A stretch of DNA of 32,629 nt from the NCBI GenBank assembly GCA_937902985.1, contig CALFNG010000350.1, positions 1-32,629 of the forward strand, read 5' to 3'. Below are positions 25,802-32,629 of the stretch, piece after piece (the first letter of the stretch is position 1; the number at the start of each line of letters is the position of its first letter). The notes beneath the pieces were generated by a model. The model did no database searches, was not told the DNA's origin, and saw only the letters and a program-made list of their open reading frames with translations. The translations under genes and the position numbers were made by a program. This DNA is from an uncultured Myxococcales bacterium (lineage in GTDB: Bacteria > Myxococcota_A > Polyangia > Polyangiales > Polyangiaceae).

Positions 25802-25892
25802 AAGCTTTGGCGGGTGGGCGCGGTTGCTCCGGCACGAGGTCTACGGTCCACGTACGCGCCGCGAGGGCCGAACCCGAATCTCTGCTCTGCGT

Positions 25893-25915
25893 CCTCTGCG
25901 CCTCTGCGGCCAATC
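25893..25915 (+). repeat. 23-bp dispersed repeat, copy 1
   Basis: The sequence is identical over 23 bp to 30975-30997. It consists of CCTCTGCG units and ends GGCCAATC. Both copies lie in gaps between convergent genes. I recall similar TCTGCG-type repeats from other bacterial genomes. Confidence 0.85.
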
Positions 25916-28638: not shown

Positions 28639-29186
28639 GTCGCCGGCGGCGTCCGGAACACGAAGTCGTGCGGGGCTTCGTGGTGGCACGTCGCGCACGC
28701 GGTCGTGCGCGCGTCGGTGAGGACCTGCCCGTCGGGCTCGACGGCGCTGAACCGCCACGCGCTGCCCCGCTTCTCCATCGCGAGCAGCCCGGCGACCCCG
28801 CCGTCGCCCGTGGCGCGATCGATCGCCTCTTCGACGAACACGGCGCCTTCGGCGAAGTCGGCGCCACCGTCAGCGCGGAGGTCCCCGGTCCACGAGGCCC
28901 GGGCGGCCTCGTTGGCCCAGACGACGCCGTCGAAGCGCTCGGCGTGCCCGAGCGACAGGAAGCGATCGCTGAGGCGGGTGACGAGACCGTACCGCACGCG
29001 AAAGTCGCCGGTCCCGGCGGAGGCGTCGTCGCTCGACCGGGGGCCGCGCTCGGTGGCGCGCGGCGGCGAGATTCCCACGGGCGACGCTTCCTGGGCGCCG
29101 CATGCCGCGCCCGCGACGGCCAGGACCGCGCTCACGCCCAGGCCGAGACCTAGAAGGAGACGCCGGCTTCGAGCGACGTCGTCCAC
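28515..29186 (-). CDS. Cytochrome P460-type lipoprotein with CxxCH heme motif
   Basis: A 223-residue exported protein from GTG 29186, with GGGAG seven bases upstream. The signal peptide RSRRLLLGLGLGVSAVLAVAGAAC ends at C29, a lipobox-like site. The mature part matches the P460 fold: FRVRYGLVTRLSDRFLSLGH, GVVWANEAARASW, GAVFVEEAIDR, GLLAMEKRGSAWRF and CATCHHEAPHDFVF, with heme cysteines C164 and C167 and H168. In known P460 proteins the heme is also crosslinked to a lysine. After DFVF about 45 Ala/Ser/Thr-rich residues overlap the antisense membrane-protein gene and may have no function. The start overlaps the barrel gene's end by 37 bp, so the two are co-translated. Confidence 0.82.
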   Translation of the reverse strand: MDDVARSRRLLLGLGLGVSAVLAVAGAACGAQEASPVGISPPRATERGPRSSDDASAGTGDFRVRYGLVTRLSDRFLSLGHAERFDGVVWANEAARASWTGDLRADGGADFAEGAVFVEEAIDRATGDGGVAGLLAMEKRGSAWRFSAVEPDGQVLTDARTTACATCHHEAPHDFVFRTPPATQSSSAAASAAMTATAPTPVATAAATYDARSAGSAAAPSRR

Positions 29187-30283
29187 TGCCTGCTCCCGTT
29201 GACGCCGATGACGCCGTTCTCCGCGCCCGGGTCGGTCATGTCGATGGCGAACTGCGCCGCGAGGTAGAGGATCTCGAACCGGTAGTTCAGCCCCAGCATG
29301 CCGCGCCAGCGGTGGATGCGCGCCTTGCGGAACGTGGTGTCGTTGTTGAAGTCGCTCACGTTGCCCGTCTTGCAGACGGGCGTCCCGTCGTTCGGCAGCT
29401 GGCCGGAACCGAGGTTGCCGGGCGCATTCTTGTTGCCGGGTAGGTTGGGCCCGAGGTACCCGCACTGGTTGAGCGGGTCGGTGGTCGGCGTCAGGTCGAC
29501 GACCGACGAGTCAGCGAAGATGATGATGCGCTGAACCCCGAGGTACGGCGTGAGCACGGCGCTGTCGGCGACGGCGAAGGGCTTCGAGACCTGCGCATCG
29601 AGGCCGACCGTCGTGAGGAAGAACTTCGGCGAGCCGCCGATCGTTCGCACGCCCGCGCCGATGGAGACGTCGGGGAGGTAGCCGAGCGCGCCCGTGCGGT
29701 AGCCCTCGAGAATGGCCCAGCGAAGGTCGGCCCCCCCGACCCAGAGCGACGTGTTGGCGAGGTAGCCGAGATCGCCGGCGATCTCGAACCCGTAGGCCAG
29801 GCCCTTGCGCGCCTTCAGGCTGTAGACGCCGAGGATCGAGTCCGGGGTGGTGTTCTCGATCGAGAAGGCGTGGCTGTTCGGGTCGACCGGTCCCTCGGTG
29901 CCCTTGTGCCAGTACTGCACGCCGCCGGCCGTCGCGTCCGCGTTGATGTGCGTGAAGCTGGTCTCGAGGCTGAGCGCGAAGCCGCCCAGCCCCGTGGTCC
30001 GGGCGGCGTGGAACGCGGTCGGCGCGATCGCCATCCCGAGCTCGCTCATCATGTTGGCCCAGGCCACGTTGTTGGGAACGCACGCGGTGGTCGCGCAGCT
30101 GGCGAGGCGCTCGGGCGCCGGATCCATGTCACCCGCCCAGGCGGAGCCACCCGTCGCGGCAAGCGCGAACGTGGCCAACGTGGCAAACGTGGCAAACGTG
30201 GCAAACGTGGCAAACGTGGCAAACGTGGCAAACGTCGCGACTGAGCACGCGGTGGCGACGGGGACCTTCGGATTGCGGGGCAA
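29150..30283 (-). CDS. Outer-membrane beta-barrel protein with repetitive signal peptide
   Basis: A 377-residue protein. TTG 30283 is preferred: GGAG lies five bases upstream, and the promoter at 30320-30349 predicts a transcript starting close to the other candidate, TTG 30313. The signal peptide contains six ATF triplets, then ATL and ATF, from a 9-bp tandem repeat, and ends near SAWAG. The mature part alternates polar and hydrophobic residues in barrel strands (GFALSLETSFTHINA, LAYGFEIAGDLGYLANTSLWVGG, FFLTTVGLDAQVSKPF, ILYLAAQFAIDM) and ends SLEAGVSF with a C-terminal phenylalanine, the usual BAM signal. Two Asn/Pro/Gly-rich loops carry cysteine pairs. It probably forms a pore or ligand barrel; the P460 lipoprotein encoded next may work with it. 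Confidence 0.85.
   Translation of the reverse strand: MPRNPKVPVATACSVATFATFATFATFATFATFATLATFALAATGGSAWAGDMDPAPERLASCATTACVPNNVAWANMMSELGMAIAPTAFHAARTTGLGGFALSLETSFTHINADATAGGVQYWHKGTEGPVDPNSHAFSIENTTPDSILGVYSLKARKGLAYGFEIAGDLGYLANTSLWVGGADLRWAILEGYRTGALGYLPDVSIGAGVRTIGGSPKFFLTTVGLDAQVSKPFAVADSAVLTPYLGVQRIIIFADSSVVDLTPTTDPLNQCGYLGPNLPGNKNAPGNLGSGQLPNDGTPVCKTGNVSDFNNDTTFRKARIHRWRGMLGLNYRFEILYLAAQFAIDMTDPGAENGVIGVNGSRQWTTSLEAGVSF
30171..30233 (+). repeat. 9-bp tandem repeat, about seven units
   Basis: One GTGGCCAAC is followed by six perfect GTGGCAAAC copies. On the coding strand the unit reads GTTTGCCAC and encodes Ala-Thr-Phe in the barrel protein's signal peptide. The 9-bp unit keeps the frame whatever the copy number. 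Confidence 0.95.
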
Positions 30284-30319
30284 GAGGGCTCCGAGTAGCG
30301 TGTGCGACTCCAACTCGCG

Positions 30320-30349
30320 AGGCTACGGTTTGCCCGCGCCGAGCGTCAA
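30320..30349 (-). promoter_or_regulatory. Sigma-70 type promoter for the barrel/P460 operon
   Basis: On the minus strand TTGACG (30344-30349), an 18-bp spacer and TAGCCT (30320-30325) fit the housekeeping consensus. The start would be near 30313, about 30 bases before TTG 30283. Confidence 0.45.
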
Positions 30350-30934: not shown

Positions 30935-31006
30935 CGAGAGAGAGATCTGGCGCAGAGGGCGCAGAGGGGAGCGCCCTCTGCGCCTCTGCGGCCAATCTCC
31001 CTCTCG
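30935..31006. terminator. Long bidirectional hairpin between trmL and gcdH
   Basis: CGAGAGAGAGAT (30935-30946) pairs with ATCTCCCTCTCG (30995-31006), and GCGCAGAGG-type units inside pair with CCTCTGCG units. The right inner arm contains copy 2 of the 23-bp dispersed repeat (30975-30997). It lies in a 90-bp gap between convergent genes. Confidence 0.7.
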
Positions 31007-32261: not shown

Positions 32262-32629
32262 TCAGCGCGGCTGGGTTCGAATCGAAGGCGTGGCCCCGGT
32301 GAAGTCTGCGCGAAGAGTCACGCGCTCTCCGCCGCGGAGCGTCAACGACTCGCCCCTGGATTCGCCCGTTGGCGGAAACGTGAACACGACGGCGTGGGCG
32401 CCGGGCTCGAGTGCGATCGAGCGCGGGCAGGCGCCGCGGGCCACACCGTCGACCGAGACGAACGTGCCGTCGCCGAGAAGGATCAGCTGCCCCGGTTGCA
32501 CGCCTTGCCCGCCTTGTGCCGCTTGCGTTCGCGCGGTCGCGGTCGCGGTCGCGGACGCAAGCGCGGACGCGGACGCAGACGCAGGCGCAGGCGCAGGCGC
32601 GGACGCGGTCGCCGTCGCGGCCACGACCG
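32262..32629 (-). CDS. C-terminal part of a PEGA-like domain protein, partial
   Basis: The frame is open to the right window edge, so only about 121 C-terminal residues are seen and no start can be set. The first 45 visible residues are an Ala/Ser/Thr/Pro low-complexity tract coded by GCG-type hexamers. Then comes a compact strand-rich domain: ILLGDGTFVSVDGVARGACP, ALEPGAHAVVFTFPPTGE, LTLRGGERVTLRADFTG. The VDG...LEPGAH pattern is that of PEGA domains, which in myxobacteria often end Ser/Thr kinases or surface proteins. The identity of the rest is unknown. Confidence 0.68.
   Translation of the reverse strand, partial: VVAATATASAPAPAPASASASALASATATATARTQAAQGGQGVQPGQLILLGDGTFVSVDGVARGACPRSIALEPGAHAVVFTFPPTGESRGESLTLRGGERVTLRADFTGATPSIRTQPR

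Follow-up and report, generated by a model that had tools for sequence, protein, structure and literature searches.

In a conserved outer-membrane barrel gene of Polyangia, the 9-bp tandem array within the signal-peptide region is best read as a recent, lineage-specific slippage expansion that is tolerated in frame, a reading given a probability of about two in three. It lies in the window, the whole stretch of 32,629 nt that was analysed (contig CALFNG010000350.1 of an uncultured Myxococcales bacterium). Probably it is one product among others of a tendency of the whole genome to generate repeats, and not a switch built for the purpose. This reading is carried by three lines of evidence: identical DNA units inserted into a leader that in the orthologues has no repeat, many further 9-bp arrays in unrelated places of the same genome, and few such arrays in related genomes.

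Barrel gene, leader and array

The gene occupied nt 29150–30283 of the minus strand including the stop codon and encoded 377 residues, a call based on orthologues, the TTG start with its GGAG, an AlphaFold model, PDB folds and a C-terminal Phe. A GGAG ribosome binding site (nt 30289–30292, minus strand) was located 5 nt before TTG 30283 and was arranged alike in the orthologues; the nearest of these likewise started with TTG and conserved the GGAG. The promoter (nt 30320–30349, minus strand), recognised by its conservation in orthologues, consisted of TTGACG (nt 30349–30344), an 18-nt spacer and TAGCCT (nt 30325–30320), with a predicted transcription start at about nt 30313. Most of 55 orthologues (among loci L216–L279) had TTGACG-N17/18-TAGCCT ahead of the start; the promoter is thus strongly conserved across the family. 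The earlier note had conceded that its proposal would fall with a true start downstream of the repeat. Promoter, GGAG and orthologue starts agree on TTG 30283, which lies upstream of the array, and that start is therefore preferred and supported by these sequence signals; the sole downstream candidate within the leader, the TTG of an Ala-Thr-Leu unit, would leave a leader of about 15 residues that lacks a basic n-region. An alternative upstream start, TTG 30313, was disfavoured because transcription is predicted to begin at that very position.

A Sec signal peptide of 50 residues (nt 30134–30283, minus strand) was predicted from the translation, hydropathy and an alignment with orthologues (A1), all judged by eye. 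As read by eye, it comprised the n-region MPRNPK, a hydrophobic stretch of 41 residues and a cleavage site between SAWA and GD. Within it, in frame with the open reading frame 30283–29150, lay the array of eight 9-bp units (nt 30167–30238, minus strand), denoted (GCCACGTTT)8, identified by sequence, TRF and shuffles and encoding ATFATFATFATFATFATFATLATF. On the minus strand, unit 1 was GCG ACG TTT (nt 30238–30230), units 2 to 6 were five copies of GCC ACG TTT (nt 30229–30185), unit 7 was GCC ACG TTG (nt 30184–30176) and unit 8 was GCC ACG TTC (nt 30175–30167); the translation thus reads six ATF, one ATL and one ATF. The earlier note had rightly recognised an (Ala-Thr-Phe)n repeat in the hydrophobic core, as translation, hydropathy and orthologue alignment agree, and its count of six perfect units plus variants holds in the phase ACGTTTGCC; its position for the array, nt 30171–30233, clips about one unit. 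Its point that slippage by whole units preserves the frame is borne out by the unit length and by the in-frame position.

TRF reported the array at nt 30168–30235 with period 9, 7.6 copies, 98% match and a score of 129, the highest in the window, and its longest period-9 self-match ran for 50 bases, versus at most 14 in 200 first-order Markov shuffles. Among the Phe codons of 225 high-GC3 ORFs from the array-bearing genome, 9.3% were TTT, compared with 6 of the 7 Phe codons inside the array. Identical units built on a codon that is rare in the genome indicate that the array arose by DNA duplication and not by repeated selection for the same amino acids. With a unit that is a multiple of three, near-identical DNA copies and an intact frame, the array has the properties of an in-frame coding tandem repeat (VNTR-like). 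The DNA pattern GCTACATTT, a wrong back-translation of the array, gave no matches.

Barrel orthologues were present in 75 of 96 related genomes, including records of Polyangiaceae, Sorangium, Labilithrix and other Myxococcales, so that nt 29150–30283 represent a conserved Polyangia outer-membrane barrel family. No Pfam family and, by sequence, no PDB relative was found for the protein. The AlphaFold model, built from 41 sequences (pLDDT 86, pTM 0.79), had about ten long strands, and leader residues 24–44 formed a helix. A PDB fold search with this model gave 60 matches at E below 0.001, and the 50 listed were all outer-membrane barrels, with low TM-scores by query length (0.14–0.35). The protein combines a signal peptide, a predicted antiparallel beta-barrel and a C-terminal aromatic residue (Phe), and the mature form is very likely an outer-membrane barrel as modelled, in line with its naming as a barrel protein in the earlier note.

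The leader before the MDP residues was 52 residues long, versus 27–28 in the three nearest relatives (L002–L004) and 31 in a fourth (L005). The excess over the three nearest, 24–25 residues, equals about eight units, and no repeat was present in about 60 orthologue leaders inspected (overlapping sets of 29 loci and of 59 readable among 64 loci). The array is thus a net insertion by DNA duplication. Without it, the leader would be orthologue-like, having 26 residues and a hydrophobic stretch of 17. From zero to eight units this stretch grew from 17 to 41 residues by hydropathy, and the peak over 12 residues stayed nearly flat, moving from 1.92 to 1.67.

Nine-base-pair arrays across the genome

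Used as a DNA query against its own genome, the array retrieved three further arrays, and looser patterns returned many. About eight others were located in likely signal peptides, mostly of lipoproteins; the calls, made by eye, relied on three marks, namely a basic n-region, a hydrophobic core, and either a lipobox or an AxA site. These included MRRSFLF(ATF)n and (FAT)nFGAGC, which lie at the ends of contigs C119 and C478, respectively, and are probably the halves of one gene; MKRWSFLS(FAS)5FAGIAC of a PEBP lipoprotein and an (FVA)n leader, both on C160; MRVSSLFVARSASLASL...LLGC of an NlpC/P60 lipoprotein (C168); (FAS)n of a Cys-rich lipoprotein (C355); (AAF)n (C56); (AAL/AAF)n (C557); and an ATF leader of two units only (C456). 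S1 proteins are cytoplasmic, and the (ACL)n array of an S1-domain gene on C168 was for that reason left out of this count; it probably lies upstream of the true start.

Other 9-bp arrays fell into linkers, tails or stretches that are apparently intergenic, and their units differed widely in sequence across the genome. They encoded (GER)n in the tail of an RluB-type protein (C386) and in a nuclease-like protein (C203), and (KGS)n in a loop of an HtpG-like protein; these three protein names are our presumptive labels, read from sequence without Pfam support. Arrays of the unit GCCNCGTTC that appeared to be non-coding were present on C277 and C428. On C203, a perfect 6.7-copy array of CGTCGGTCT (locus L087, nt 2621–2680) encoded (DET)n close to the C-terminal end of an open frame of 755 codons.

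Four copies of GCCNCGTTN with at most one mismatch occurred at 8 contig places in this genome versus 5 in 107 family genomes (relatives with arrays include G049, G035 and G128), and at none in the congeners G001 and G002. The stricter pattern of three copies of GCCACGTTY was found in the own genome and in one other. Perfect 9-bp arrays of any unit with at least 2.8 copies numbered 13 in 810 kb of the own genome, five of them with at least 4 copies, and none with at least 4 copies occurred in 499 kb of the relatives G002 and G012, a small sample, so that the difference for all units rests on few counts. Among periods of 5–30 bp with at least 4 copies, period 9 was the commonest (10 of 26 arrays), followed by period 12 (4 arrays), in a 975-kb sample that included a few contigs chosen for pattern hits and in which some period-9 hits were arms of a separate palindromic element. 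Period-9 duplications thus appear to be made or retained far more in this genome than in its relatives. MutS is encoded in it, which indicates no obvious loss of mismatch repair and led us to reject such a loss as the cause. Loops of 9 bp are poor substrates for mismatch repair.

Two other kinds of repeat were observed in the window. Intergenic REP-like palindromes made of short repeats (GGCGCAGAGGGCGCAGAGG...CCTCTGCGCCTCTGCGG) were located at nt 30949–30990 and 25880–25908; their relatives occurred on many contigs (35 pattern matches in 1.2 Mb of the own genome), and the pattern had no match in 0.5 Mb of G002 and G012. At the contig end, an imperfect 6/12/18-bp array (nt 32532–32620) encoded an Ala-rich (A-T/S/P)n segment near the N terminus of ORF 32262–32624 (minus strand).

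Origin of the array and competing explanations

In the preferred reading, replication slippage would expand a 9-bp unit inside the signal-peptide region, and the core would accept the extra Ala-Thr-Phe triplets since it requires hydrophobicity and no particular sequence, a matter of presumed tolerance and not of selection. Because the unit keeps the frame and the core would tolerate ATF, arrays could persist in signal peptides no less than in linkers, tails and apparently intergenic stretches, and their copy number is likely still changing. The lack of a repeat in the orthologues and the many arrays in unrelated places allow general slippage to account for the array without selection for tuning. 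A modest effect of the array on export rate is possible and is not required by the data. Export tuning as proposed in the earlier note is compatible with this reading, but would call for both polymorphism in unit number and a change in export. Against plain tolerance stands the count of about eight signal-peptide arrays when cores make up, by a rough estimate, under 1% of the genome; the unit search, however, started from a hydrophobic Ala-X-Phe unit and is thereby biased towards such places. Tolerance alone may therefore be too simple an account of the signal-peptide arrays, and the over-representation of GCCNCGTTC is likewise not predicted by plain slippage.

It is conceivable, if unlikely, that the locus is a length-type contingency locus, in which the number of ATF units varies the length of the core and thereby the rate of export or processing, with selection acting here and in the other leaders. 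Such selection would suit an array that keeps the frame and sits in the core of a leader belonging to a surface protein, its recurrence in about eight other likely leaders including those of PEBP, NlpC/P60 and Cys-rich lipoproteins, and the more than doubled hydrophobic stretch, and leader repeats that alter a surface protein have a precedent in opa (PMC13183285, PMC3960869). However, the array is known from a single metagenome consensus, the peak hydropathy barely moves with unit number, arrays occur in non-exported contexts too, the proteins that carry them have no evident common role, and the repeat is absent from all inspected orthologues. The wider proposal that leader arrays form a shared, slippage-driven rheostat, by which export of outer-membrane proteins and lipoproteins would vary from cell to cell without ever being switched off, is more doubtful still. 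An improbability of similar degree attaches to a family of repeats defined at the DNA level, in which GCCNCGTTC would be a preferred unit that reached its various sites by spreading or seeding, for instance through template switching between arrays, independently of coding sense. That unit is indeed read in different senses, as ATF in leaders, as GER on C386 and C203 and in the apparently non-coding arrays, and its exact form occurred in at least 4 copies at about six loci, a fit that a random 9-mer achieves 0.2% of the time. In the unbiased arrays, however, the shift towards it was weak (6 of 13 within distance 2 versus 23% expected), many arrays have unrelated units, and no common flanking sequence was seen by eye; a pure DNA-motif family is thus not clearly shown by the unbiased sample, and the lineage appears to have a propensity for 9-bp arrays, among which GCCNCGTTC is favoured without being exclusive.

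An assembly or sequencing error in the array, or in its number of copies, is very improbable, even though 5 of 25 sampled 9-bp arrays with at least 4 copies stopped exactly at a contig end versus 0.14% expected (C119, C478, C428, C277 and C140 of the own genome, G000). The array in the window lies 2.4 kb inside its contig between unique flanks and has variant end units, and the gene is in the correct frame, intact and supported by orthologues. The arrays that stop at contig ends indicate instead that the assembler fails at long arrays; array lengths and number may therefore be underestimated in the assembly, with true lengths exceeding assembled ones. Such ends fit length variation without proving it. 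C119 and C478, and likewise C428 and C277, share units, and each pair may be one locus split by the assembler. A slippage expansion tolerated in frame remains the preferred origin of the array.

Relation to known repeat systems

Like the CTCTT repeats of Neisseria opa, the array is a short tandem repeat that belongs to a gene for an outer-membrane (surface) protein, sits where the signal peptide is encoded and has slippage as its presumed source. In opa, repeats of a 5-bp unit in this region act by on/off frameshift (PMC13183285, PMC3960869, PMC3899988). The two differ in that the opa unit shifts the frame and its variation is demonstrated, whereas the 9-bp unit is divisible by three, alters length and allows no on/off frameshift, and is documented by one metagenome consensus; an array at the orthologous gene of a related species, as expected of an opa-type contingency locus, was not found among the orthologue leaders inspected. 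Graded output from repeat length, the kind of effect proposed in the earlier note, is given by the T-tract of Helicobacter sabA (PMC4081817); that tract lies in a promoter and its effect was shown by experiment, whereas here the array is coding and a graded effect is only proposed. In Haemophilus influenzae, repeat units above seven nucleotides are rare (PMC2651432).

Constant-size bacterial tandem repeats of variable sequence were described by Subirana and Messeguer with units of 20–21 and 52 nt, units below 10 nt being excluded (PMC8161180). The arrays reported here may be similar, in that many share one unit length with differing sequences, but period 9 falls below a majority in the 975-kb sample, the unit has 9 nt, and many of them lie in coding sequence. 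Bacteria commonly have amino-acid repeats that stem from units divisible by three (PMC8161180 section 3.4, PMC6749651); the described cases are repeats of domains or protein segments, whereas the present one is a net insertion into a signal peptide. No description of an in-frame repeat array in signal peptides was found in the open-licence papers searched.

Repeats in the coding regions of signal peptides are known as on/off switches, and here an in-frame version recurs in eight or nine likely leaders of one genome. Such arrays would be a natural experiment on the limit that export sets to the length of the hydrophobic core, and could amount to a graded kind of surface variation. Should they be neutral, they still mark out a bacterium in which 9-bp expansion is in species-specific excess, and in which comparison with close relatives makes the cause of a preferred bacterial repeat length testable.
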